A stretch of 42,574 bases of DNA from Pirellulales bacterium. Its GTDB lineage: Bacteria > Planctomycetota > Planctomycetia > Pirellulales > Lacipirellulaceae. The position numbers were made by a program, and so were the translations under genes. The notes under the pieces were generated by a model that had not been told where the DNA came from, did not search any database, and worked only from the letters and a program-made list of their open reading frames with translations. Each line of letters opens with the position of its first letter. Position 1 is the first letter of the stretch. This document shows positions 28,988 through 42,400 of the stretch, one piece after another. The stretch covers positions 1 through 42,574 of the forward strand of contig JAKVCC010000024.1 in assembly GCA_022448265.1 (NCBI GenBank), written 5' to 3'.

Positions 28988-29926
28988 TCAGTACCCTTTG
29001 TCCCAATCGGGCTGGATATTGGCGGCAATGGACTGGCCAATATAACAGTCCGTACGCAAGTGCTGATGAATGGACGACGGAAGTTTCGGGGTGACGGGAC
29101 CGTGGTAGCAGAGTCGGGCAATCATGCGTTGCCAACTGGTCGCGGTGCCGTGAACGCCGATGGCAGCGATTTCCCAGCGATGACGGGCCGCAATGACCTC
29201 CTTGGGTCCCACCGTGGCGGCCATCGGGGGCACGGCAGCCAAATCGCCGCTCATGCCAAAACTGCCGTGCATGGAATTTTGCGCCAACGTAAACGGGCTG
29301 AGCGTGCAGACGCGCGCACCCATTTGCTTAAACTCCTCCAGCGAGCCCTCGAACTCGGGCGCATCCGGTTCTACAAATGCTAGGTGCCCCGTCCAGCCGG
29401 GCCCAGTGTAACTGATGTCTACTCCGCCTGCCTCCTGCATCAAATCGTAGTAGTGGTCGATATTCTGGTTGCTGGGGCCAAATACTTGCTGGCGTGGGGG
29501 ACGCAAATCTTCGTCAATTGCATAGTACAGGGACGTCAGCATCGAATACATAAAGCCAAGCGGCCAGTCCTCGGGCGCCACCTGCCGGTGCTCGTTCGCG
29601 TATTCATCCAGGGCAAAAAACCAGACATGCTTGCAGTCCAGTCGCGTCGCGTTGATGAGTCGCGCCAGTGGCCGATAGAGCGCCGGGCATGGGTTCGGCA
29701 TCATCATCACGCACCGACGCCCCTCTTCACTTGCCTCCTTGATTCGCGCATACATGTCGGTAACCCACAGGAACCCCAAGTCCGCTTCCTTGATCACGCG
29801 AATTTGAAAGTCTGGATTGGTATGTTTTTCTATGTCTTCCCGTTTGATGGCGCGGCAGCGCTCAATTTCTCCCTTGTCACGAAAGGGCACAAACTTGGAG
29901 GGACTAAACTGAAAGATTTCGTTCAT
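28988..29926 (-). CDS. NagB-like glucosamine-6-phosphate deaminase homolog with altered active site
   Basis: 312 residues, longer than E. coli NagB (266). The conserved FALDEY gives D107-E108, equivalent to the base Asp72 region of NagB. The second motif reads GPGWTGHLAFVEP (175-187): His181 and Glu186 match His143 and Glu148 of NagB, but the Asp141 position is Thr179. Asp141 helps open the sugar ring in NagB. It starts inside the end of nagA (4-base overlap), so it is co-translated with it. Likely converts an amino-sugar phosphate; the missing Asp argues for a different substrate, such as one already open-chain, or loss of activity. Confidence 0.78.
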   Translation of the reverse strand: MNEIFQFSPSKFVPFRDKGEIERCRAIKREDIEKHTNPDFQIRVIKEADLGFLWVTDMYARIKEASEEGRRCVMMMPNPCPALYRPLARLINATRLDCKHVWFFALDEYANEHRQVAPEDWPLGFMYSMLTSLYYAIDEDLRPPRQQVFGPSNQNIDHYYDLMQEAGGVDISYTGPGWTGHLAFVEPDAPEFEGSLEEFKQMGARVCTLSPFTLAQNSMHGSFGMSGDLAAVPPMAATVGPKEVIAARHRWEIAAIGVHGTATSWQRMIARLCYHGPVTPKLPSSIHQHLRTDCYIGQSIAANIQPDWDKGY

Positions 29927-31143
29927 TGCCGTTCACCTATCGTACAGGGTTGCGTCTCCGCATCAAAAACGCAGTTTCCAGCAACCCAAGTTTTTTTCGC
30001 TTGCAACCGGTTGTCTCCCTGGTACCAAAGCACCAAGTCGGCATCGGCACCAACTCGAAGATCTCCCTTGTTGGCAAGATGCACGACCGATGCGGGGTTG
30101 GTGGTGCCCATCGCCCAAACTTGGTGCGGTGGGAGGTCTAACCAGTTGAGCAAATTGAAGATGGCCCGATCCATGGTCAGCGAACTGCCTGCCAGCGTAC
30201 CGTGTTGCGGATGATCTTTATCGGCAACCCGTGCGGCATCCGAGGGACTGACTTCGACAGCATATCCGCATGTTGTTTGGTAAACACCGCGTTCCAGACC
30301 GGCACCAATGTTTGCGTCGGTGATCGCTACAATCCCCTCCCAACTCTTGGCCGCAAGCGCCGCGCGAATCGCCATGGGATCGACGTGCACACCGTCGCAG
30401 ATAAAGTCGACGGTCGCGCGCGGGTCTGCCAGAATCGTCTCGACAGCCCCCACCGGCCGAGCGCCGGATTCGGTCTCGTCGGGCAGGGGAAATACGTCGT
30501 AGAAGTGGGTCGCATGGCGGGCACCGGCGCCAATTGCCGCCTCGGTTTGCTCGACCGAGGCACGGGTGTGCGTAATGAATACCGCAATGCCCTGTTCGCC
30601 CAGACGTTCTATTACGGGAATAATATTGGGTGTGTCGGGACTCACCGACATCGCAACAACCCGGCCACCAGTCGCTGCCAGTAATTCTTCCAGCAGCACC
30701 AAGTCACCCGGCACCGTCTCGGCACCGGCACCGGGCAATGCCAAAAACGGGCCTTCCAAGTGAAAGCCAGGCATCGCCGCACCCGCTGTCTGGTTCAATG
30801 CCTCGCTTAATCGTTCCAGATGGCCAAGCGACGAACGGTTCATGACCGTGTATAGCGTTGGCAGAACACATGTCGTGCCAAAGCTGGGCAAGACGGCAGC
30901 CGCGCGGTCAATCTGCTGGGGCTCAGCTTCGTAAAGAAAATGCTGAATCCCATGACTATGAATATCGATCAAACCGGGTGTTAACAATGCCCCTTTTGCG
31001 TCAACGCGATCGACCAGACTGTCGGTCTGATCCTTCTGCGGGTCGATCGCCGCGATTTTCCCGTCCATCACTAGGACGCTGCCAAGCCGGACCCAATTTC
31101 CAGGACGCAGCAGGCGTGCATTTTCGATGAGCGTGGCTGCCAT
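29923..31143 (-). CDS. nagA: N-acetylglucosamine-6-phosphate deacetylase family
   Basis: 406 residues, normal length for NagA. Metal and catalytic motifs: GLIDIHSHG with H62 and H64, FHLEGPF (metal Glu), FITHTRAS and HATHFYDVF (His ligands), CDGVHVDP and ITDANIG (catalytic Asp). Reaction: removal of acetate from GlcNAc-6-phosphate, giving GlcN-6-phosphate, cytoplasmic. It starts 5 bases after the GntR gene ends and overlaps the NagB-like gene by 4 bases, the classic nagR-nagA-nagB order. The exact sugar may differ, given the altered NagB-like partner. Confidence 0.88.
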   Translation of the reverse strand: MAATLIENARLLRPGNWVRLGSVLVMDGKIAAIDPQKDQTDSLVDRVDAKGALLTPGLIDIHSHGIQHFLYEAEPQQIDRAAAVLPSFGTTCVLPTLYTVMNRSSLGHLERLSEALNQTAGAAMPGFHLEGPFLALPGAGAETVPGDLVLLEELLAATGGRVVAMSVSPDTPNIIPVIERLGEQGIAVFITHTRASVEQTEAAIGAGARHATHFYDVFPLPDETESGARPVGAVETILADPRATVDFICDGVHVDPMAIRAALAAKSWEGIVAITDANIGAGLERGVYQTTCGYAVEVSPSDAARVADKDHPQHGTLAGSSLTMDRAIFNLLNWLDLPPHQVWAMGTTNPASVVHLANKGDLRVGADADLVLWYQGDNRLQAKKTWVAGNCVFDAETQPCTIGERQ

Positions 31144-31148
31144 GATGG

Positions 31149-31898
31149 TTACGGTAGTTCTGCTTTGCTTGGTACTTGAAGTCGAATCGTAGATACGAGA
31201 CGAAACAGGTCGTTGCGGTAATAACTAATGAACAAACCGCAAGCTGTTCCTGACGCAAAAAACATGGTGTCAATTTCTTTCAGCAGCGGCCCGCCGACTA
31301 CCCCCCCGAGGTATCGCGCCTGTGCCGGCTCGGCGGCAACGGCTTCAATACTCTGCGTCAGATAGTCGATACGAATCTGTTGCACTTTTTCCCAGCGTTC
31401 AAGGAAACGCAGTTGCCCCAAGTCTTGCTTATCCAACCGGTCGGCCACCTGTTCACTAAGATACACTTCATCATAAGCAACCGGCACATCTTCGAGCACG
31501 TCGATGCGCCGAGCGAACAGCACACGCGAGCCAAGGGGAGACTGCAGCATTCCCGCAACGTCGTCAGGTGCCTTTTGCCAATGCCAAGCCTCCAGTCGGC
31601 GCCGCAGTTCCGGCGCGTGAGCCGCCACCGATCCGCTGAAGTCCGTCGCCAGCAGTGGTATTCTGCGCGAGGGTGTGGGGCTGACAAAGGTCCCGCTGCC
31701 GTGCCGGCGTTGGATGAGAATCTCATCGGCCAAGATTTGCAACGCCCGGCGGATCGTGATCCGCGACGCCGAAAACTGTTGGCACAATTCTCGCTCGGTG
31801 GGTAAACGCTCTCCCGGGGCAAGTTCGCCGCACAGGATCAACTTACGTAGTCCGTCCGCTACTTGCTTGTAGGCAGCCGTTGATTGAGCTGTCGCCAT
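31149..31898 (-). CDS. GntR/HutC-family regulator with UTRA domain (NagR-like)
   Basis: 249 residues from ATG 31898; the frame opens 18 codons earlier without family similarity. The N-terminal winged helix has ELAPGERLPTERELCQQF and SRITIRRALQIL, the GntR signature, ending GSGTFV. The C-terminal part is UTRA-like (RIDVLEDVPVAYDEVYL). HutC-type regulators sense small effectors; NagR and DasR of this family sense GlcN-6-P or GlcNAc-6-P. It is first in the unit with nagA and divergent from the ceramidase-like gene, so it probably controls both directions through the TTATGAC repeats. Confidence 0.9.
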   Translation of the reverse strand: MATAQSTAAYKQVADGLRKLILCGELAPGERLPTERELCQQFSASRITIRRALQILADEILIQRRHGSGTFVSPTPSRRIPLLATDFSGSVAAHAPELRRRLEAWHWQKAPDDVAGMLQSPLGSRVLFARRIDVLEDVPVAYDEVYLSEQVADRLDKQDLGQLRFLERWEKVQQIRIDYLTQSIEAVAAEPAQARYLGGVVGGPLLKEIDTMFFASGTACGLFISYYRNDLFRLVSTIRLQVPSKAELP

Positions 31899-31942
31899 CT
31901 TCGCGATCCGCCGACGGGGAGTGTAACCTTGACACAAAAAGG

Positions 31943-31969
31943 TTATGACCATTATCGTGAAATTATGAC
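31943..31969. promoter_or_regulatory. Candidate operator: TTATGAC direct repeat in divergent promoter
   Basis: TTATGAC at 31943-31949 and 31963-31969, starts 20 bases apart (about two helical turns), between the divergent GntR and ceramidase-like genes. Read on the minus strand they are GTCATAA. Likely binding site of the GntR regulator; inference from position and periodicity. Confidence 0.4.
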
Positions 31970-32022
31970 AAGTGGTGTACGCCTGTCAACAAGCCGCCTC
32001 GGAGCAAGATGGATCGCAGAAA

Positions 32023-33417
32023 ATGTCTGAACACGCCCGGCATGCGACACAAGGTCAGCGACGGATTGGGGCAGCCCAACAAGACGTAACCCCTACGAGT
32101 GCCCAGTTCCTGTTTGGCTATCCTCATGTCGAGCGGATGAGTACGGGCGTGCATGATCCGTTACTCGCTGTTGCCATGTATCTGGATGATGGCGCGGCCG
32201 AGGCACTTTTTGTGGCCGTCGATATCATCTGTTTGACCAAAGAGCAAGTTGCTGAAGCGCGGAGGGGCATTGCCGAGGCAACGGGCATTTCCACTGCCCA
32301 CATCATGATTACCGCGACCCATACGCACTCAGGCCCCGTCACAGTGGAACTGCTTAGCACAACAAATGATGCGATAGTACCTGAGCCAGACTCCGATTAC
32401 CTTGCAGTCCTAATTCAAGGAATCATTCAAGCCGCCAAGGACGCCCACCGCAGCGCGCAGCCGGCAGCGATCGGATTTGCAGTGGCAACGGCGCCGGGAA
32501 TTGGCACCAACCGGCACGATCCGGAGGGTCTGTCCATGACCGAAGTACCGGTGCTTGTGGCGCGCTCGCTGGCAGATGAAGATGTGATTTGTGTGATGAG
32601 TGTTTGCAGCATGCACCCGACGGTGTTGCACGAAGATTCGACGCTTATCAGCGGCGACTTTCCCGCCTTTGCGAGGCAGTACCTGCAAACGCATGGGCTC
32701 GTCGCGGATTGCCCGATACTTTATCACATGGGCGCTGCTGGCAACCAAAGCCCACGCCACGTCACCAATGCCAATACTTTTGACGAAGCAAAGCGCTTAG
32801 GCGAAATTCTGGGCAAGGCCTGGGAAGCTGCGCTGAACCAGGCTGAGTTTGTATCGGACTGGACGCTGCGATTAGACGATACTTTCCTCGAGTTACCGGT
32901 CCGCAGCCTGCCATCCATGCAGCAAGCGAAAAACGACTTGCGTCAAGCGAGCGACGAATTAGATTATTTACAAAAAACTGGTGCCCCGCGAGCAGCAGTT
33001 CGCACAGCAGAGTGCAACTGGTTTGGCGCGGAGGAGACATTGACCTTGGCGACCGCGGTCGAGGACGGCCGTCTTGGCAACGCAGCTCGTGATTGTATGC
33101 CTGCCGAAATTCAAGCCATAGGTATTGGGCCCTGGACCTTTGTCGGCTGGCCCGGCGAAGTCTTTGTCGAATTTGCCCTGGAAGTGCGGAAGCACTATCC
33201 CAATGCGTTTATCATCACCTTGGCCAATGGCGATCTACAAGGCTATCTGGTCACCGCCGACGCGGTGAAAAACAAAACGTACGAAGCGGGCAATGCCGTA
33301 TTTGCGAGTCCCGATTCGGGGGAGCTGTTGGTAGCAAACACGTTGGAGCTATTAAAAGACTCCAGTACATCGAAAGCGGTCCCATGCGCGCAAAATGTGC
33401 GCGTTGCAGAAGCATGA
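32023..33417 (+). CDS. Neutral/alkaline ceramidase-fold amidohydrolase, no signal peptide
   Basis: 464 residues from ATG 32023; a GTG at 31972 is also in frame. Motifs of the neutral ceramidase N-terminal domain are present: ITATHTHSGP with H100 and H102, MHPTVLHEDSTLISGDFP with H198 and the ISGD block, and GAAGNQSPR. Known: this domain uses one zinc to cleave N-acyl amide bonds. Here there is no signal peptide and no C-terminal Ig-like domain of true ceramidases. With NagA, a NagB-like protein and a kinase as neighbours, a soluble N-acyl amino-sugar or N-acyl amine is a more likely substrate than ceramide. It overlaps the kinase gene by 4 bases. Confidence 0.82.
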   Translation: MSEHARHATQGQRRIGAAQQDVTPTSAQFLFGYPHVERMSTGVHDPLLAVAMYLDDGAAEALFVAVDIICLTKEQVAEARRGIAEATGISTAHIMITATHTHSGPVTVELLSTTNDAIVPEPDSDYLAVLIQGIIQAAKDAHRSAQPAAIGFAVATAPGIGTNRHDPEGLSMTEVPVLVARSLADEDVICVMSVCSMHPTVLHEDSTLISGDFPAFARQYLQTHGLVADCPILYHMGAAGNQSPRHVTNANTFDEAKRLGEILGKAWEAALNQAEFVSDWTLRLDDTFLELPVRSLPSMQQAKNDLRQASDELDYLQKTGAPRAAVRTAECNWFGAEETLTLATAVEDGRLGNAARDCMPAEIQAIGIGPWTFVGWPGEVFVEFALEVRKHYPNAFIITLANGDLQGYLVTADAVKNKTYEAGNAVFASPDSGELLVANTLELLKDSSTSKAVPCAQNVRVAEA

Positions 33418-34790
33418 GTAAAATCCTCGTACTGGATCTGGGCACGACTTATTTCAAGGTCTGTCTATTTGACAAAACGGGGCAACTTGTAGGACTGCAA
33501 CGGGTGGCAACACCCGTGGAGCATCCGGCAGACGGCCGCGCGGAGCTGCCCGTCTCAACGTTTCGGCAGAGCCTGGTCCGTGCAACAAATGACCTAGCCC
33601 TTAAGGTGGGCGGCCTGCATGACGTGGCGGCCGTCAGCTTTGCCACACAAACCAATAGTTTTGTGCTGCTGGATAAGCGTGGAGAACCATTAACGCCGAT
33701 TCTGCTCTGGACGGACCAGCGGGCATTGGGCCTGGATAATCCGCTACAGAATTTGGCCACGGCGCCCCAATTTCGTGCCAAAACGGGTGTGCCTAGACTG
33801 GATCACCACTTTCTGCCGGCAAAGATGTACTGGTTGCAACAACACGATCCCAGCACTGTCGCCAAGACATGTCGACTGGCCCTGATCAGTGACTATCTCA
33901 CTTGGTGGATGACGGGCAGCCATACAACCGAAGCAGGTGCCGCAGGCCTTGTCGGTCTGGTCGACATTCATCAACTCCGGTGGTGGCCCGAAGCGTGCCA
34001 GCAAATTGGACTGCCACTCGAATGGCTGCCAACAATTGTCCGCGCCGGCACGGATTTGGGACCGTTGCGCCCCAGTGTGGCAGAAGCATTCGGCCTGCCA
34101 GTTGCATGCCGCTTTATTGTTGGCTGCTTGGATCAATACGCCGGCGCCATTGGGGCAGGCAATCTAGAGCCAGGAAGCATCAGCGAGACCACAGGAACGG
34201 TCATGGCGACCGTTCGCTGCTCCGACTATTTTGAAAACAGCCCCAGAGCTGACATATTCCAGGGACCGTCTTTCAAACGCGGACAATACTACCAGATGGT
34301 ATTCAGCGAAATCGCGGCGTGTCTGCTCGAAAAATATCGCAACTCCCTTCCAGATCTTCCCAGCTTTTCCAAGCTGGACGAGTGGGCTGCGTCCGTACCT
34401 TTGGGCGCCGAGGGCTTGCGATTGCACCCTGACGCGCCGAACCGAAAGGGCGCCGACCTCTTCCTCAACCGTCGCGACGATCACACCATCGGCCATGAGG
34501 TCCGAGCCATCCTCGAAGCGGTAGCGGGTGAACTTGACAAGCAGGTTCAACTTTTGCATCCGCAGTACCCACCAAAAGAAGTGCGATCACTTGGCGGCGC
34601 CGCGCGTAGCAAATTATGGCTGAAGATAAAAAGTGCTAAGCTCGGCTGTACCGTCCAGGCCGTCGACTGTGCCGAACCTACCAGCCTGGGTGCAGCCATG
34701 CTCGCCAGGCAAACACTGCAGGGAACGTCCCTCTCGGAACTAGCACGCAAGTGGGTTCGAGTAGGAAAAGGTGATCTGCCTGGTCCTTAA
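33414..34790 (+). CDS. FGGY-family carbohydrate kinase
   Basis: 458 residues from ATG 33414, an ATGA overlap with the ceramidase-like stop; a longer open frame exists upstream but lies inside that gene. Phosphate-binding start ILVLDLGTTYFKVCLFD, sugar-contact WTDQR (99-103), catalytic Asp in GCLDQYAGAIGAGN, C-terminal ATP-binding SLGGAARSKLW and TSLGAAMLA. It phosphorylates a sugar, ketose or polyol in the cytoplasm; xylulokinase-like in length, but the specificity cannot be read. Translational coupling implies that the product of the amidohydrolase is, or is made together with, its substrate. Confidence 0.9.
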   Translation: MSKILVLDLGTTYFKVCLFDKTGQLVGLQRVATPVEHPADGRAELPVSTFRQSLVRATNDLALKVGGLHDVAAVSFATQTNSFVLLDKRGEPLTPILLWTDQRALGLDNPLQNLATAPQFRAKTGVPRLDHHFLPAKMYWLQQHDPSTVAKTCRLALISDYLTWWMTGSHTTEAGAAGLVGLVDIHQLRWWPEACQQIGLPLEWLPTIVRAGTDLGPLRPSVAEAFGLPVACRFIVGCLDQYAGAIGAGNLEPGSISETTGTVMATVRCSDYFENSPRADIFQGPSFKRGQYYQMVFSEIAACLLEKYRNSLPDLPSFSKLDEWAASVPLGAEGLRLHPDAPNRKGADLFLNRRDDHTIGHEVRAILEAVAGELDKQVQLLHPQYPPKEVRSLGGAARSKLWLKIKSAKLGCTVQAVDCAEPTSLGAAMLARQTLQGTSLSELARKWVRVGKGDLPGP

Positions 34791-34933: not shown

Positions 34934-34974
34934 AGATAGTAAAGCTTGACTATCTGTACGGGTTAGCCTAGCAT
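34934..34974 (+). promoter_or_regulatory. Near-perfect 22-bp palindrome over a sigma70-like promoter
   Basis: AGATAGT (34934-34940) and ACTATCT (34949-34955) flank an AAAGCTTG core, giving 10 of 11 matched pairs. A -35 TTGACT (34946-34951) overlaps the right arm, with a 17-base spacer to TAGCAT (34969-34974). This is the layout expected of a repressor operator. Its position before a His/Cys-rich gene and two all3515-like genes suggests a metal-responsive repressor such as Zur; the regulator gene is not in the window. Confidence 0.6.
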
Positions 34975-34980
34975 CCGGGA

Positions 34981-35496
34981 ATGCTGTTTTCTGCGATAGT
35001 TATGCGCCGTTTGATTGCCTGTATGCTACTAGCCACCTATGGCTCAGTAGGTGTACTAGGCTATGGATTGCATGCTTTGTGGCATGTGCATCACCATCAT
35101 GGTTTGCACGGATCTGCGACGGTGGATTCTTCCTGTTCCTCTTGCCGCCACCATTGTTGCAGTAGCAAAGCACGGCAGCCGGAAGCGGACAATACGGCCG
35201 ATGCCTTGGCTAAGCAGGAAAAACACCAGCTGCAGTTGCGACAGCACTCTCACACCAACTCCCAAGAAATCTCGGCTCCCAAAGAAAGCTCTACTTGTTC
35301 CGAAACTGTCACAATAGTGGCAACAGAAGGTCCTTGCCCTATTTGTGCCATACTTTCTCAGTCCCTAACATCTGAGCTAGTAATCTGCAGTGGTTCACTC
35401 GTTGCTGCCGTTCCCGCGGAACGCCCAGTCGACGAAATTCTTCAGCCACTCTATCTTCCGAGTGAGCATCTAGCACGCGGACCACCAGCCTGCTAA
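34981..35496 (+). CDS. His/Cys-rich small exported protein (DUF2946-like)
   Basis: 171 residues. One N-terminal hydrophobic helix (LIACMLLATYGSVGVLGYG) is followed at once by HALWHVHHHHGLHG and a CSSCRHHCCSS cluster. A middle region carries HSH and Cys residues, and CPIC (CxxC) lies near residue 119. The end ARGPPAC resembles the R-x-PP ending of DUF2946 proteins. Predicted to be membrane-anchored or secreted and to bind a soft metal through its His/Cys clusters (inference). First gene behind the palindromic operator. ATG 34981 is used; ATG 35002 would also retain the helix. Confidence 0.7.
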   Translation: MLFSAIVMRRLIACMLLATYGSVGVLGYGLHALWHVHHHHGLHGSATVDSSCSSCRHHCCSSKARQPEADNTADALAKQEKHQLQLRQHSHTNSQEISAPKESSTCSETVTIVATEGPCPICAILSQSLTSELVICSGSLVAAVPAERPVDEILQPLYLPSEHLARGPPAC

Positions 35497-35746
35497 TTCG
35501 CGTTCGTGCTTGTGCGCGGAGCGTTTAGCTCCAGTGCTTTCTGTATGCCCAGTGGTTCCTCCTGGCGTTTAGTATTTCGTTATTACTTGTACATAGTTTT
35601 TCTTGTAAGAGAGGTGCGCAAGCAATTCTTGCCTGCCACATTGATTCTATTGATCGACCGTAATGGTTCTCTTGGATTCACTACTCTTCAGGATTTCTGT
35701 GCATGAGTTGCCAGGACTTTAGTCCAAATATCATGTGAGACGGATT

Positions 35747-36826
35747 ATGCGATTTCGCAGTGCGTTCACACTGGTGGAGCTTTTAGTGGTGATTGCCATT
35801 ATCGGCGTCCTCATTGGGTTACTGCTTCCTGCTACACAAGCAGCAAGGGAAGCAGCAAGGAGGACGCTGTGCGCAAACAACCTCAAGCAACTTGGTCTTG
35901 CGCTTCAGACACACCATAGTACAGTTGGACACTTCCCTATTAACCAAACTGCGAGTGGCCGATCGTCAAACAATGGCTGCGAGCCGGGCAATTACAGCTG
36001 GTTGGTCCGTGTATTGCCTTACATGGAGCAAGGCTCCTTGTACGATTCGATCGACTTCAACACGAACATGTCCGACGCATGCTCCAGCGGAATTCCGATC
36101 GGTGCATCGCACACCAACGCGATTGCAGCGGCTACACAGGTAAGTGGATTTTTGTGTCCCTCTGACGGTGTTTCGAAAGACAACGCGGTCGTAATGGGAG
36201 ATGCTAATCCAGCCGGCGACAACTATGCCGCTAACGCAGGTTGGCCTTCTTCGGCGACCGGTTACGACGGAAAGCGGACAATTCCTGGCCCCTATAACGG
36301 TGTGATCAGCTTACAACACCCTGGCAAATCCATTGCGTGGCATCAGAGTGGCAACACAAGCATCAGGCATATAACTGATGGCACTTCCCACACCGCAGCC
36401 GTTGTAGAGCGGCTATTTCAACGAGCGCAAAATCTTGATGAAATTCGCAACGTCCGTGAATCGCTCAAGTCCTATCACATCACCGAGTCCAGCGGCCGCA
36501 CACTTTCTGTGATGAGAGATCGCTGTGACGCCGGATCGACACATGCTGACCCAGTGGAATCAGCCTTCATCGGGCGAGCTTGGATTTCTGGATGGACGCC
36601 CACGGGATCGACCTACATGCATCTGAATACACCCAATATGAGCCATTGTCACTTTGAGAACCTCAATGCCAGCGGCGATTTTGCAGTCACACCCTCAAGC
36701 AATCATCCGGGCGGTGTCAACATAGTACTAGCAGACGGTCACTCGCAATTTATTTCTGAAGAAATTGAGCCCCTGCTCTGGTGGGCCCTCGGTAGCCGCG
36801 ATGGCGGAGAGAGCGACACACTATGA
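35747..36826 (+). CDS. DUF1559 pseudopilin-like protein
   Basis: 359 residues from ATG 35747 (weak GAGACGG upstream; GTG 35735 is in frame). Prepilin motif [20 protein letters not shown], then [11 protein letters not shown] and [14 protein letters not shown]. The C-terminal HPGGVNIVLADGHSQFI is family-typical. Its stop overlaps the next start (ATGA), so it is translationally coupled to the first all3515-like protein. Other DUF1559 genes are usually followed by small lipoproteins; here the partner is a PEP-CTERM protein. Confidence 0.9.
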   Translation: MRFRSAFTLVELLVVIAIIGVLIGLLLPATQAAREAARRTLCANNLKQLGLALQTHHSTVGHFPINQTASGRSSNNGCEPGNYSWLVRVLPYMEQGSLYDSIDFNTNMSDACSSGIPIGASHTNAIAAATQVSGFLCPSDGVSKDNAVVMGDANPAGDNYAANAGWPSSATGYDGKRTIPGPYNGVISLQHPGKSIAWHQSGNTSIRHITDGTSHTAAVVERLFQRAQNLDEIRNVRESLKSYHITESSGRTLSVMRDRCDAGSTHADPVESAFIGRAWISGWTPTGSTYMHLNTPNMSHCHFENLNASGDFAVTPSSNHPGGVNIVLADGHSQFISEEIEPLLWWALGSRDGGESDTL

Positions 36827-37737
36827 ATTCCCGACGACTAGTAATTCTTGGACTTTTGAGTTGGGGAATCTTGCCCCATGGATTCCATCCAAGTGAAGTG
36901 GCAGCGCAGACCGCTCACTCCGACATCGTTTTTTCATACTCTGCTGGGCATGTCGTCATTGACCCAGGCGCAACCCCCGGTGTAGCTACCGGCGAATTTC
37001 CTGTGGATGGTTTCTTTTCTCAATTCGAAAGTAATCCGGGATTCGCTTCGGAAAATGACGTCGGCTTCGGCATCAATCCCGGCGACATCATTGCCTACAG
37101 CGTCTTGGATGATCTTCACTTTTGGAATGGCAGTAACTTTGCATCACCAACAGCCAACACGCAGATCCGCATCGAAAACAACGGATCCGCCGACACGATA
37201 GTACATGGCGCCAGCGGAACGCTGCAAGGCGGCTTTGCTCCCCTGGACAACGGCATTGGGCAGGCAGATGGCATCGGCGATTTTCATTCCCACGTCGACT
37301 TCTTTTTAGAGCCTAACGATGGTTCGCCTCCTCCAGCATTTGGTGTTTATGGATTGAAGCTTTCCTTATCAACAAGCTTTATCGACGTCGCTGACTCCGA
37401 GCCATTTTTTATCGCCTTCAATTTTGGCTTAGATAGCCAAGGGTTTACTGATGCTGTTCAGCAGTACGCTTCGCTACTTGCTCCCAGTCTTGATGGCGAC
37501 TTCGACAGTGACGGAGACGTCGATGGCCAGGACTTTCTCAGCTGGCAAACAGGCGGGGTGACAAATCCGCCGAGTGGTATCGACCTACTTGCCTGGCAAG
37601 ACAACTACGGAACAAATAGTGGGATGCCCTCAATCGCAAGTATCGCAGTTCCTGAATCTACGACTGGATTACTTGTATTGATTGGCTCAACAGTGGTGCT
37701 ATTAAACCGATATCCGCTTCAGAAAGGAGGCACTTAA
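36823..37737 (+). CDS. PEP-CTERM protein resembling all3515 (Zur-repressed) family, with dockerin-like segment
   Basis: 304 residues. Signal peptide to about residue 27, and the mature protein starts near AHSDIVFSYSAG. Features shared with the next protein and, as I recall the family, with cyanobacterial all3515: an N-terminal HSDI, GFASE..VGFGINPGD, DFHSHVDFFLEP (H-x-H), and SEPFFIAFNFG. A dockerin-like calcium segment follows (DFDSDGDVDGQDFLSWQ). The C-terminus VPESTTGLLVLIG plus a basic end is a PEP-CTERM variant. The conserved His suggest metal binding. Exported and probably surface-sorted. The all3515 relationship is by eye. Confidence 0.72.
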   Translation: MNSRRLVILGLLSWGILPHGFHPSEVAAQTAHSDIVFSYSAGHVVIDPGATPGVATGEFPVDGFFSQFESNPGFASENDVGFGINPGDIIAYSVLDDLHFWNGSNFASPTANTQIRIENNGSADTIVHGASGTLQGGFAPLDNGIGQADGIGDFHSHVDFFLEPNDGSPPPAFGVYGLKLSLSTSFIDVADSEPFFIAFNFGLDSQGFTDAVQQYASLLAPSLDGDFDSDGDVDGQDFLSWQTGGVTNPPSGIDLLAWQDNYGTNSGMPSIASIAVPESTTGLLVLIGSTVVLLNRYPLQKGGT

Positions 37738-37839
37738 ATTATTTGACTTGTTTTTCAATCAGCAGAAATGGAGTCCGTTTACACGGCCATTTAGTATGGA
37801 TTTTCTTATATTTCATTTTTATTAAGAGGGATTGATCTA

Positions 37840-38559
37840 GTGACTACACAATTTTTCAAAGCAGCTTTAATGTCGGCCTTACTTATAACGTTAGCGATCG
37901 CTAGCCCTTTTGCCGCAGCACAACATTCACATTCTGATATCGAATTTGAGTACGACAACGACAAAATCGCTATTGAATTTGGTTCCGAAGGACGGGTCTT
38001 CGAAGCGGATTTTGCAATTAGCGGTGCATTTGAACAAGAGACCGATGATCCAGGGATCGCCTCCGAACCCGACGAGGGCATGGGGGTGAATGCAGACGAC
38101 ATAATCGATTATCAAATCCTCGGTCCCCTTGAGTATCACAACGGCACCGCTTTTGCCACTGTGCCCACGGGGGGGAGCATAGTCATAGGTGACAATCCAA
38201 CCGGTGGCTTAACGGTGGACGCAAACACCATCGGGCCTGCGAGTGGCTCCGGCATTATCGCTATGGCCGACTCTTTAGGTGAGGTTCACACCCACGTTGA
38301 GTACTTTCTCGATCCGATTTCGTTCGACACTGACGAATATGGAGCATACGCCCTGCTGATGCAACTAACTACAGACGCGTCGGGGATCGCGCCTTCCGAT
38401 CCATTCTACGTTGTATTTAATTTCGGACTTGAGGAATCCGTTTTTGAAAATGCTGTCGGAGCATTTGCCACCAAAGTACCCGAGCCAACGTCACTCGCAT
38501 TTGCGGCGGCGGCGATGGTACTGGGGTTGAAATTTTTCCCAAGAAGATCCGGCATCTAA
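37840..38559 (+). CDS. PEP-CTERM protein resembling all3515 (Zur-repressed) family
   Basis: 239 residues from GTG 37840, with AAGAGGG 9 bases upstream. Signal peptide ends near FAAAQ, and the mature protein begins HSHSDIEFEYDN. Homologous to the preceding gene: GIASEPDEGMGVNADD, GEVHTHVEYFLDP (H-x-H), SDPFYVVFNFG. It lacks the dockerin-like segment. PEP-CTERM tail KVPEPTSLAFAAAAMVLG then FFPRRSG. Last gene before a strong terminator. Proposed role: exported metal (zinc) binding or a response to zinc limitation; inference from family and operator. Confidence 0.74.
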   Translation: MTTQFFKAALMSALLITLAIASPFAAAQHSHSDIEFEYDNDKIAIEFGSEGRVFEADFAISGAFEQETDDPGIASEPDEGMGVNADDIIDYQILGPLEYHNGTAFATVPTGGSIVIGDNPTGGLTVDANTIGPASGSGIIAMADSLGEVHTHVEYFLDPISFDTDEYGAYALLMQLTTDASGIAPSDPFYVVFNFGLEESVFENAVGAFATKVPEPTSLAFAAAAMVLGLKFFPRRSGI

Positions 38560-38609
38560 CCGTTAGGCTAAAAAACAGATCACTTCGATCAAGTGATTTC
38601 GCGACATTT

Positions 38610-38642
38610 GGCCACAGCATTTATAGCCTAAATGCTGTGGCC
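38610..38642 (+). terminator. Rho-independent terminator of the palindrome-controlled operon
   Basis: A perfect 14-bp stem (38610-38623 with 38629-38642, GGCCACAGCATTTA arm) and a 5-base loop, then TTTCTC. About 50 bases after the second all3515-like stop. A smaller hairpin (ATCACTT/AAGTGAT, 38579-38597) precedes it. Confidence 0.82.
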
Positions 38643-38763: not shown

Positions 38764-39105
38764 TCACATTGATCGCATAGGCTTTGCCGCTCGACACACG
38801 GAATAATTTTTCAGAACCCAACTCGTACCCTGCAGGACGTTCTCCGCTTCATCGCGCACATCGTAACGTCCAGGACAGTCCTTCACAGCGATTACCGCAC
38901 CTGGGGCAAGTCGCAAATGGATGGACTCACAGTTGAGGAACGCCAGGCCCAGTTGCTTGGATTGGCTTATACATTGCGAACACTGTGCCGCTTCGCGGGC
39001 CGCTTACACAGCCGGCAGAAACAGCGCCACCAAGACGCCGATGACGGCAATCACCACTAGCAGCTCAACGAGGGTGAAGGCGCGGGGTGGGTGCCTAAAG
39101 CCCAT
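38764..39105 (-). pseudogene. DUF1559 pseudogene with in-frame stop
   Basis: Reading from ATG 39105, the protein starts [18 protein letters not shown], the prepilin motif, then LVALFLPAV, a TAA stop at codon 34 (39006-39004), and AAREAAQ and SKQLGLAFLNCES in the same frame. The stop replaces the Gln of the conserved AVQAAREAA. After about 70 codons the DUF1559 similarity ends, and an unrelated tail runs to TGA at 38764. The copy therefore has a nonsense mutation and lacks most of the gene. Intact homologs are at 18188-19225 and 35747-36826. Confidence 0.8.
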
Positions 39106-39167
39106 CGTCGTAGATCCGATGTGCACATAGAAAAATCAACAAACTACGAAACATGGCGGCAAGCAAA

Positions 39168-40685
39168 TTAAGACCAATTTCGAGCAAGAATGCAAACAAT
39201 TACTGGTCCTATCAGCAACACCAAGCTTGAAGGCTCAGGAACGGCGGTAGAGGCTGACAAGGGTGGTGAAAGACTGCCTGTAAACTGCCGCTGCCAAATT
39301 AGAAAATCGGCGCCGTCTGTATCGCCGTCGCTGTCAGCGTCTGCACCACCGTCGACTCCGTTGTGTAGTTGCCACACAGAGAAATCAAATCCGTCGACGT
39401 CCCCATCACCGTCAAAGTCGCTTAAGAGGGGCGGTGAAAGACTGCCTGTAAACTGCTGCTGCCAAATTAGGAAATCGGCGCCGTCTGTATCACCATCGTT
39501 GTCAGCGTCTGCACCATCGTCGACCCCATTGTGTAGTTGCCACACAGAAAAATCAAATTCGTCGACGTCCCCATCACCGTCAAAGTCACTTAAGAATGAA
39601 ACCAGTAAATCTTGGCTGCTGTTGATTAGCGAACCGGGTACTGCCTCCAGCCCGAGCAGGTTGAGCGCCAGATTTCCCGTGTCTCCGCTGCGAATAGGCT
39701 GAACAACGGCATTGTAGTCCGGTCGGCCTGAACCTGGGTCAAGTCGACTCGTCGAGTTTAGTTCGTATAGGTCGGCTCCTGCCGCTATGCCCGGCCCCCA
39801 TACGAACAAGGGAATCGTATAGTGTGCCTCGAGGCTGGGCGCACTGTGTCCGTATTCCGAACCTCCATGATCGGTGGTGACGATAATTATTGTTTCGTCA
39901 ATCAGGCCAGCATCGCTTTCTACTAGGTTTAATATATCGCCTAAATAACTGTCGACGTCTTGTACTGACATATACCAGGCGGTCGACCCCCAACGCCGCG
40001 TGTGCCCCGTAGTATCTGGATCGCGGTAATGGAGAAAGGTGTAGTTGTACTCACTGGCCGCCATGTCACTCAAGTAATTGGTATTTAGCGTTGAACCAAT
40101 GGAATTTTGTACGTACGCATCAATCTTATCACGCCCATTGTCAGGTCCAGTAGCATCTAGCGCTCCAGTTGAGGCGTTGTAGCTTTGATCGTAAATTACA
40201 AATTTTTCCTTACTTGCATAGAGAGCCGTAGATAACCCATTGTCGTGGGCTACGTCGAAAACACTCGAAACGTAGGAAAGATTAGGGTTTCCGTCATTGT
40301 GGAGCGTGGCGGTCAGTCCGGGATGACCGTTATTTGTGTATCCGTGATAGGTCGTATTGGGTGCTCCGCTTGGCTGCGAGACGGGGCGGCCCGTTTGCAT
40401 CGATGTATGATTGGGAATCGTATTGGTGTGGGTGAAATCAGTGCGAGCGTTAAAAGTCGTTGCTCCTTCGTCCACGAATCGCACAAAGTTAGAATAAAGC
40501 AATGGGAATGCATCAATCTGCGATTTCAAGAGATTGCTATTTAGTCCATCCACACTAATGTGAATGACATGATCGACAGCGAACACCGTCGAAGATGAAA
40601 TGGAGAACGCTAAGGTTAGTGCAATGCCAAACACTGCAATTGGCGAACTTCGAAAAATTCGAGATCTAGGAGCGTGAGGATCCAA
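39168..40685 (-). CDS. Secreted type-I phosphodiesterase/nucleotide pyrophosphatase-like protein with two dockerin-like modules
   Basis: 505 residues from TTG 40685, which has AAAAGG 6 bases upstream; another TTG at 40700 and no ATG are available. Signal peptide to about residue 36 (SSSTVFA). Alkaline-phosphatase-superfamily motifs: ISVDGL (metal Asp46), TNTIPNH (nucleophile Thr89), DPDTTGH and TTDHGGSEYGH. It would cleave phosphodiester or phosphomonoester bonds outside the cytoplasm. Then follow two near-identical Asp-rich dockerin-like modules (DFDGDGDVD..DFSVWQLHNGVD) and a PEP-CTERM tail (AVPEPSSLVLLIG). Stand-alone gene. Confidence 0.82.
   Translation of the reverse strand: MDPHAPRSRIFRSSPIAVFGIALTLAFSISSSTVFAVDHVIHISVDGLNSNLLKSQIDAFPLLYSNFVRFVDEGATTFNARTDFTHTNTIPNHTSMQTGRPVSQPSGAPNTTYHGYTNNGHPGLTATLHNDGNPNLSYVSSVFDVAHDNGLSTALYASKEKFVIYDQSYNASTGALDATGPDNGRDKIDAYVQNSIGSTLNTNYLSDMAASEYNYTFLHYRDPDTTGHTRRWGSTAWYMSVQDVDSYLGDILNLVESDAGLIDETIIIVTTDHGGSEYGHSAPSLEAHYTIPLFVWGPGIAAGADLYELNSTSRLDPGSGRPDYNAVVQPIRSGDTGNLALNLLGLEAVPGSLINSSQDLLVSFLSDFDGDGDVDEFDFSVWQLHNGVDDGADADNDGDTDGADFLIWQQQFTGSLSPPLLSDFDGDGDVDGFDFSVWQLHNGVDGGADADSDGDTDGADFLIWQRQFTGSLSPPLSASTAVPEPSSLVLLIGPVIVCILARNWS
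39261..39596. repeat. Tandem 168-bp duplication encoding dockerin-like module
   Basis: Unit 39261-39428 and unit 39429-39596 align base for base with a few substitutions, period 168 bases (56 codons). Each encodes two Asp-rich Ca-binding loops. The reading frame is preserved. Confidence 0.85.
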
Positions 40686-40863
40686 AGATACCCTTTTCAA
40701 ACGGTTTCAGGGGGCGGTTCCGTCTATCTTAGTAGTATAGCAAGGCCTCGTAAGTGTAGTTAAGAAACGAGCAGGTAGTGGTAGCTGCGGAATTTCGTTG
40801 TTTTACAGCCAGTGAATCCTAGGCCGCATAGAAGATTGCTCGCTATGCTCTGCAAATATAGAA

Positions 40864-41194: not shown

Positions 41195-42400
41195 CTATCT
41201 TGCCGATCGCCGCCGGCGTAACGTCAGCCCCAGGCTGGCCAGCGATGCTAACAGCAGTGTGTGTGGCTCGGGGACAAGGGTCCAACCTTGCGCGACCGGG
41301 TCGAAGCCAGAGGGAAAGAACGTTGCCGGACTATAGAGTGGATTGCCGACGGTTGCGCCTAAGCCGACTACGGTTTGCAGATCGACGGCAGAAAAATCAA
41401 TGTTCGAAAGATCCTCACCGGAAAGATCTACGTTATTAAGTACCGCGTCGGGACCAAGCCAGTAGGCGGCGTAGACGTCGTAGCCCCCGTCGGCATCGCT
41501 GTGCCAGACAACGTTCGAGCCTGAGATCTGGGGGGTGCTGTTATCAGCCCCGTTGTTCGAGAGGTTGGTCAGGCTCGTGCCGTCGTGCAGGTAGATGTCA
41601 AAGTTCCCGTCGGCATTGCCCGTCCAGACAACGTTTGAGCCGGAGACCTGCGGGCTGTGGTTAGTAGACCCGTTGTCCGAGAGGTTGGTCACGCTCGTGC
41701 CGTCGTGCAGGTAGATGTCTTCGTTCCCGTCGGCATTGCTCTGCCAAACAACGTTGCTGCCGGAGATCTGGGGGTATTCGTTATTAGCCGCGTTGTTCGA
41801 GAGGTTGGTCACGCTCGTGCCGTCGTGCAGGTAGATATCGTAGTTCCCGTCGGCATCTCCCATCCAGACAACGCTGCTGCCGGAGATCTGGGATTCGCTG
41901 TTCTCACCCGCGTTATTCGAGAGGTTTGTCACACTAGTGCCGTCGTGCAGGTAAATGTCGTAGTTACCGTCGGCATTGCCTTGCCAGACAACGTTCGAGC
42001 CTGAGATCTGGGCGCGGAGGTTATCAGACCCGTTGTTCGAGAGGTTGGTCACGCCCGAGCCGTCGTGCAGGTAGATGTTGAAGTTCCCGTCGGCATTGCC
42101 ATGCCAGACAACGTTCGCCCCGGAGATCTGGGCCGTGCCGTTATAAGCCGCGTTGTTCGAGAGGTTGGTCACGCCCGTGCCGTCGTGCAGGTAGATGTCG
42201 TAGTTCCCGTCGGCATTGCCTTGCCAGACAACGTTCGAGCCGGAAATCTGGGGGTGTACGTTCTTAGCCCCGTTGTTCGAGAGATTGCGAACCAGGTGGC
42301 GGCCGTCACCGATACCTGCCAAGGAGGGCAGCGCGGCCAGTAAGACCAACGCGGCGCTGAGCACGACAGCGGTTATAGTGGGTTGAAAAGAACGCTTCAT
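41195..42400 (-). CDS. Secreted PEP-CTERM protein with seven TolB-like propeller repeats
   Basis: 401 residues. Signal peptide 1-28 (ALVLLAALPSLA). Residues 39-318 are seven 40-residue repeats with consensus QISGSNVVWQGNADGNYDIY and LHDGTSVTNLSNN, a WD40/TolB-like blade; seven units predict a closed seven-bladed propeller. Then comes a short pentapeptide-like stretch (LSGEDLSNIDFSAVDL) and a PEP-CTERM tail (LVPEPHTLLLASLASLG, then RRRR). Probable role: surface or matrix binding protein; ligand unknown. ATG 42400 lacks a strong Shine-Dalgarno. Isolated gene. Confidence 0.85.
   Translation of the reverse strand: MKRSFQPTITAVVLSAALVLLAALPSLAGIGDGRHLVRNLSNNGAKNVHPQISGSNVVWQGNADGNYDIYLHDGTGVTNLSNNAAYNGTAQISGANVVWHGNADGNFNIYLHDGSGVTNLSNNGSDNLRAQISGSNVVWQGNADGNYDIYLHDGTSVTNLSNNAGENSESQISGSSVVWMGDADGNYDIYLHDGTSVTNLSNNAANNEYPQISGSNVVWQSNADGNEDIYLHDGTSVTNLSDNGSTNHSPQVSGSNVVWTGNADGNFDIYLHDGTSLTNLSNNGADNSTPQISGSNVVWHSDADGGYDVYAAYWLGPDAVLNNVDLSGEDLSNIDFSAVDLQTVVGLGATVGNPLYSPATFFPSGFDPVAQGWTLVPEPHTLLLASLASLGLTLRRRRSAR
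41447..42286. repeat. Seven tandem 120-bp coding repeats
   Basis: The word CGTCGTGCAG recurs at 41581, 41701, 41821, 41941, 42061 and 42181, exactly 120 bases apart; the unit nearest the C-terminus is degenerate. The repeat is in frame (40 codons) and nearly identical at DNA level, implying recent expansion or homogenisation. Confidence 0.9.

Follow-up and report, generated by a model that had tools for sequence, protein, structure and literature searches.

The four co-directional genes at positions 34934-38642 of a contig from a Pirellulales bacterium (the window, by which we mean the whole stretch of 42,574 nucleotides) probably constitute an extracellular zinc-handling operon, of a kind that appears widespread but undescribed. 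We put the probability of this reading at about 0.7, on the basis of gene association and conserved histidine residues. The genes encode, in order, a His/Cys-rich exported protein (HC), a pseudopilin-like protein of the DUF1559 family, and two secreted proteins, PEP-A and PEP-B, which we assign to an H-x-H family. Zinc is proposed as the metal because parts of the unit recur in relatives beside genes for Fur-family regulators, the zinc exoprotein ZepA and other zinc-linked proteins. The H-x-H family would be a new family of extracellular zinc-handling proteins distinct from ZepA, its function being predicted from sequence.

The source genome (G000) is 3.64 Mb in 87 contigs and 97.3% complete, and the window is its contig C17. 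A dyad with an overlapping promoter, the four genes and a terminator-like hairpin follow one another on one strand and form one co-directional unit:

34934..34955, strand not assigned: 22-bp dyad AGATAGT-N8-ACTATCT, candidate operator, from a palindrome scan
34946..34974, plus strand: sigma-70-like promoter TTGACT-N17-TAGCAT, 9/12 match, overlapping the dyad
34981..35496, plus strand: open reading frame (ORF) of HC, exported His/Cys-rich protein; homologs suggest a start at 35002 rather than 34981
35747..36826, plus strand: DUF1559 pseudopilin-like protein with a prepilin N-terminus and an H-X9-DG C-terminus
36823..37737, plus strand: PEP-A, secreted H-x-H family protein with an HSD start and a degenerate VPES C-terminus
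37840..38559, plus strand: PEP-B, secreted H-x-H family protein with a QHSHSDIE start, VHTHVEY and a sub-threshold PEP-CTERM
38610..38642, plus strand: terminator-like hairpin of 14 pairs, from a terminator scan and folding

An earlier, sequence-only reading of this DNA had reported the motifs, the palindrome and the gene overlaps, and all are present at these positions, including the ATGA at 36823-36826 in which the DUF1559 and PEP-A genes overlap. The exported HHHH/CxxC-rich protein that it described is HC, and its DUF1559 protein is borne out by matches to PF07596 (177.1 bits, E = 9.4e-52), to the N_methyl model at the N-terminus (26.2 bits, 5.4e-6) and to the H-X9-DG model at the tail (36 bits). 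When the unit was scanned for RNA elements, one sub-threshold match was obtained (E 0.42).

Gene neighbourhoods in relatives

Profiles of HC, the H-x-H family, ZepA and Fur were run over 97 genomes, G000 included. HC matched at 55 places in 39 of the 97 genomes. ZepA (NF040463-type) was found in 18 genomes; in 11 genomes it lies 10 kb or less from an HC place, 17 such places in all, with the two genes co-directional in every case (17/17). Given that only 18 of these 97 genomes of 2-8 Mb contain ZepA, the contribution of chance to this proximity should be negligible. An H-x-H match lies within 5 kb of at least 23 of the 55 HC places. The proximity counts cover 55/55 HC places, 19/20 ZepA rows (the second fragment of one G037 gene was dropped) and 70 H-x-H rows, with duplicate ORF rows and weak, mostly tail-only rows dropped; 15 picked rows were used for Fur, and the Fur counts are hence lower bounds. 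For 28 HC genes, a subset of the 55 places, we also looked for a prepilin motif downstream. One starts on the same strand within 335 bp 3' of HC in 22 of the 28, a 23rd motif returned by the script having been dropped because it lies 1.1 kb off.

Several clusters illustrate these associations. The order in G028 (locus L033) is fur, HC, DUF1559, PEP-A, PEP-B, ZepA, MerC, a second HC gene (HC2) and an ArsP_1 permease. Fur, ZepA, HC and a prepilin-type gene also cluster in another relative, G006, together with two PEP proteins, of which one was matched by a profile. In G035, a single strand encodes Fur, HC, a prepilin-type protein, a PEP-like protein, ZepA, a PEP protein and COG0523; the PEP-like protein resembles the H-x-H family by eye and has no profile match among the matches listed.

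A scan of GTDB with the H-x-H profile returned 24 loci, 10 of them betaproteobacterial (Nitrosospira, Nitrosovibrio, Methyloversatilis and others) and 14 from Planctomycetota. Within the flanks of the betaproteobacterial loci, a TonB receptor is present in 10/10, FUR and COG0523 in 9/10 each, and a strong ZepA match in 7/10. Nine of the ten have two H-x-H paralogs, and in seven the pair flanks the TonB receptor on both sides. One caveat here is that the FUR, TBDT, COBW, DKSA and ZEPA models derive from genes of the very clusters analysed here, with a Pfam/NCBIfam check on examples only; that check agreed, and it placed DksA and DUF1826 nearby as well in L127. Weak ZEPA matches (E 9e-7 to 2e-5) in L118, L124, L126 and L127 lie on PEP-tail proteins other than ZepA, three of them on the H-x-H protein itself, and were left out of the count because the mature H-x-H stretches gave no match to the ZepA profile. 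The recurring zinc island can be seen in L120, L121, L126 and L127 (Nitrosomonadaceae and Methyloversatilis), in which the TonB receptor sits between the two H-x-H paralogs, with Fur, ZepA and COG0523 close by; DksA is additionally present in the Nitrosomonadaceae loci.

The prepilin motif occurs in 0/10 betaproteobacterial loci versus 10/14 Planctomycetota loci (by eye also in L114 and L130), and thus the pilin-like partner is a planctomycete addition. HC is found in 3 of the 14 Planctomycetota loci. Overall, zinc-linked neighbours accompany the family consistently in Betaproteobacteria but only patchily in Planctomycetota.

The H-x-H family and its relation to ZepA

PEP-A and PEP-B are homologous (36% over the mature part), and both contain the HSD and H-x-H motifs, as the sequence-only reading had it. 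That reading also assigned them to the all3515 family. According to the available sections of the published work on this family (PMC10957091, to which all statements citing it here are limited), all3515 is ZepA (NF040463), a zinc exoprotein of Anabaena and relatives, and zepA mutants were reported to be more tolerant of high zinc. NF040463 matched neither PEP-A nor PEP-B at E ≤ 1 (cut-off 75 bits) and none of 21 mature H-x-H family members (0/21); eight ZepA proteins from relatives score 203-290 bits with it. Because NF040463 misses it, the H-x-H family is separate from ZepA at the sequence level, and the all3515 assignment has to be given up. A ZepA profile built here also failed to match the 21 mature members. 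The two families may still be remotely related: alignment of the H-x-H and ZepA profiles with hhalign gave a probability of 11.5% (E 0.0026) over 83 columns, in the C-terminal part only. ZepA has a zinc motif of the form H-X2-9-H-[FY]-H, and neither PEP-A nor PEP-B contains H[FY]H.

The system had further been called undescribed in Planctomycetes. This does not hold for all3515/ZepA itself, which those sections describe in the PVC superphylum, Planctomycetota included (PMC10957091). They also mention further PEP-CTERM proteins near zepA, some of which may be members of the H-x-H family. In the open-access literature, we found no paper that names a module of DUF1559, HC and H-x-H proteins in a zinc context.

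Conservation within the H-x-H family centres on a few residues: across the 21 mature members, D6 and H123 are invariant (21/21) and H125 is present in 19/21. The predicted structure of PEP-B, a confident model (predicted local distance difference test 89.4, predicted template-modelling score 0.88), is a beta-sandwich, made up mainly of beta strands with a C-terminal helix. Compared with PDB entries, the model comes closest to fimbrial and Ig-like beta-sandwiches (best Foldseek E 1.9e-3). We considered kinship to these folds (Foldseek/VIA, best Z 7.7) and take the resemblance to reflect a common arrangement instead. Solved structures include no sequence relatives at E ≤ 1.

The description of both proteins as PEP-CTERM proteins was slightly generous. 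PEP-B scores 14.4 bits against a PEP-CTERM cut-off of 20.7, and its relatives in G037, G028 and G063 exceed the Pfam cut-off. PEP-A has no match to PEP-CTERM models, and its tail, dockerin-like by eye, ends in VPES rather than PEP. An EpsH-like exosortase match in G000 reaches 96.7 bits, under the cut-off of 105.55. A tree of the family separates the PEP-A from the PEP-B proteins of the window, G037 and G028. The B clade has support of 95/84; on the A side, 99/94 applies to a broader group whose internal forks are weaker. This split across three genera implies that the pair is older than these genera. The A side also takes in both G063 copies. The second paralogs of the Betaproteobacteria make up a clade of their own.

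Candidate regulatory sites and the flanks of the unit

Upstream of HC or DUF1559 in several relatives, we noted by eye a sequence TGCAAY-N3-RTTGCA, which we propose as a candidate Zur box. It was derived from promoters of G028, G035, G037, G017 and G010, and its presence there is circular. In a scan of eight genomes allowing at most one mismatch, the G028 cluster had at least four sites, with fur, HC, ZepA and HC2 each preceded by one. Among the matches listed, further sites were seen in G035 (at fur/HC and at an additional HC copy) and in G006, where the box precedes ZepA; the G037 C41 and G010 C85 clusters, which contain COG0523 and Fur-family genes, have it too. The box occurs in 12 of 31 cluster regions versus 0 to 0.1 expected in each, where 5 of the 12 had served to derive it and some bounds of the other seven were drawn after the scan had been seen. 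These seven are all ZepA loci (G006, G019, G010 C231, G010 C52, the ZepA locus of G017 C5, G037 C10 and G016 C2). In cassettes with two H-x-H genes, the box is found at 0, 0 and 1 mismatch in G028, G037 and G063, respectively, with that of G063 the weakest; it is absent from the cassettes of the same-genus genomes G003, G004, G005 and G007.

Two loci, L104 (G037:C41:244000-263000) and L106 (G010:C85:18000-37900), contain at least four boxes each and are candidate planctomycete zinc-shortage regulons. COG0523, Fur-family and PTPS genes together make up a typical zinc-shortage gene set. PTPS is present in L104 by a Pfam match and in L106 by eye, and inspection by eye also showed carbonic-anhydrase-like genes at these loci and a DksA-like gene in L106.

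The dyad in the window, AGATAGTAAAGCTTGACTATCT at 34934-34955, matches at 10 of 11 pairs, and no other 22-bp palindrome in the 42.6-kb window has one mismatched pair or fewer. Its existence in the window is unremarkable, since 10 of 30 shuffles of the whole window also yielded at least one (mean 0.47). Such a palindrome appeared in 4 of 2000 shuffles of the dyad's own 210-bp intergenic region, and in a related dyad test on 120 bp the figure was 2 of 100 shuffles. The promoter match is not significant alone, because the scan found 2 such sites versus 3.8 expected from shuffles. The hairpin at 38610-38642 has a folding z of –5.66 and a moderately T-rich tail (TTTCTC); across the region, 6 terminator-like sites were found versus 4.1 in shuffles.

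The sequence-only reading had proposed copies of the palindrome near metal-homeostasis genes as a test, and there are none: at up to three mismatches, the dyad occurs at this one place in G000. G000 has a znuA-like gene, with ABC-transporter genes beside it by eye; neither the box nor the palindrome lies near it, and no dyad-like sequence was found in 3.5 kb around it. The other HC promoters examined contain different dyads or none, and the window dyad is not conserved among them. By eye, G007 has a similar dyad, ACCTAGT-N9-ACTAGGT, which is not the best-scoring one at its locus. The dyad may be the operator of some repressor or a chance palindrome over a promoter; with both the box and a linked Fur gene missing, it would at best be a site for a repressor other than a Zur-type one, a weakly held suggestion.

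Around the unit, 29923-34790 appears by eye to be a sugar-type cluster (a nagA-like gene, a GntR regulator, a ceramidase-like protein and an FGGY-like kinase), in which no metal genes were recognised on inspection by eye. On the minus strand, the start of a prepilin-type DUF1559-like gene faces the unit at 38900-39110 and runs into an in-frame stop soon past the motif; it looks like a gene remnant. Two further minus-strand genes were identified by eye, one for an exported PEP-tail phosphodiesterase-like protein with dockerin-like repeats (39168-40700) and the other for an exported PEP-tail repeat protein (41195-42400).

Alternatives, proposed function and known systems

A number of observations weigh against a zinc-handling role. 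The full four-gene order was seen in one relative, G028; in G003, HC, DUF1559 and PEP-A are followed by the contig end, and in G037 and G063 DUF1559 and two H-x-H genes occur with no HC beside them. ZepA is not near 38 of the 55 HC places, and 19 of the 31 cluster regions lack the box. In the 14 Planctomycetota loci of the GTDB scan, FUR, TonB receptor, COG0523 and ZepA are each 0/14 within the available flanks, some contigs being short. The window and its genome add to this list. The three intergenic stretches of the unit contain no box at up to one mismatch, inspection of the adjoining ORFs by eye showed no TonB receptor, and an NF040463-type search found no ZepA in G000. Among the matches listed, G000 has one Fur-family protein, scoring best with Fur/PerR models, and two perfect boxes (C15:11558 and C56:3626), neither at recognisable zinc genes by eye. 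Three cobW-family matches in G000 reach at most 78.7 bits, versus 134-189 for the COG0523 proteins of the zinc clusters. The metal-responsive surface system envisaged in the sequence-only reading thus draws support from zinc-linked neighbourhoods in relatives, and finds in G000 no ZepA, no box in the unit and no second Fur among the matches listed.

Of the alternatives, a role in metal efflux or detoxification comes first. Here HC would be a periplasmic CzcI/DUF2946-like protein of Cu/Zn export, with the H-x-H proteins binding excess metal outside. Consistent with this, the HC2 gene of G028 is flanked by MerC and by an ArsP_1 permease, for which the models of the SaoE and SO_0444 Cu/Zn exporters give scores below cut-offs, and some HC relatives are weakly similar to CzcI (one, E 0.086) or DUF2946 (2 of 11, best E 0.01, the window's HC not among them). 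However, the recurring partners ZepA, Fur-family regulators, TonB receptors, COG0523 and DksA belong to a set that published work and general background link to zinc shortage, and no efflux pump was seen by eye among the ORFs beside the unit. We regard efflux as improbable.

An ordinary planctomycete surface-protein unit, in which DUF1559 and PEP-CTERM proteins have no dedicated metal role and their linkage to zinc genes is due to hitchhiking, would account for the 0/14 counts in Planctomycetota and fits the very large number of DUF1559 genes in this phylum, 74 in R. baltica according to the available part of PMC2754498. Against it, a prepilin-type gene follows HC in 22/28 cases, and the H-x-H family retains its zinc neighbourhood in Betaproteobacteria, where the prepilin motif is 0/10. 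This explanation also strikes us as a poor one. A role with iron or a different metal, controlled by a Fur-type regulator, is very unlikely: Fur/PerR models give the best scores for the Fur-family neighbours, apart from that of L124 (Zur), and all scores are below equivalog cut-offs, but the neighbours ZepA, COG0523, PTPS and DksA are zinc-linked by the published ZepA work (PMC10957091).

If the unit is an extracellular zinc-handling operon, PEP-A and PEP-B would leave the cell through Sec and use the HSD/HSHSD stretch at the mature N-terminus, along with the conserved H-x-H, to bind zinc. Like ZepA, whose sequence differs, they would retain or scavenge the metal at the surface of the cell. 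HC could buffer or chaperone zinc through its Cys and His residues, either in the periplasm or anchored to the membrane, and the DUF1559 protein could be a pilin-like scaffold or display element. In some relatives, the cassette may be turned on by zinc shortage through the Zur-type box. A more specific and rather doubtful version is a pilin-scaffolded zinc-catching layer, in which DUF1559 displays or threads out the H-x-H proteins and HC receives the metal inside.

Such a layer would amount to a protein-based zinc scavenging apparatus distinct from both ZepA and small-molecule zincophores. It would give a function to one branch of DUF1559 and could replace ZepA in genomes such as G000. To our knowledge, protein-based extracellular zinc scavenging of this type has one characterised family, ZepA. 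Our data point to a second exoprotein family in similar company in two phyla, often as paralogous pairs and linked within Planctomycetota to the very large DUF1559 family, which has no known function. They also provide named partners (HC, DUF1559 and H-x-H proteins) and a candidate planctomycete Zur box.

How does the unit compare with known systems? HC is exported and contains CxxC, as are and do the DUF2946/CzcI-like small metal-associated proteins. In 11 of 11 aligned HC proteins, H24, C48, C52, C112, C115 and a C-terminal RGPP are invariant, and DUF2946 proteins have an RGPP-type C-terminal end. Unlike them, the window HC has no match to the DUF2946 model (PF11162) at E ≤ 0.1. The DUF1559 protein is a member of the DUF1559/SBP_bac_10 family (PF07596) by Pfam and by its H-X9-DG tail, and differs from the general family in being tied to an HC gene and zinc-linked exoproteins. 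The H-x-H family differs from ZepA in carrying H-x-H late in the domain without H-X2-9-H-[FY]-H, and the window genome has H-x-H proteins and no ZepA. Yet the likeness extends to export, a PEP-CTERM-type tail, His motifs that include the mature N-terminus, and a beta-sandwich domain (for ZepA, from PMC10957091), and to overlapping neighbourhoods of Fur, COG0523, DksA and TonB receptors, in which the two families are often adjacent. By analogy, the unit would work like ZepA, even though the ZepA model does not match it.

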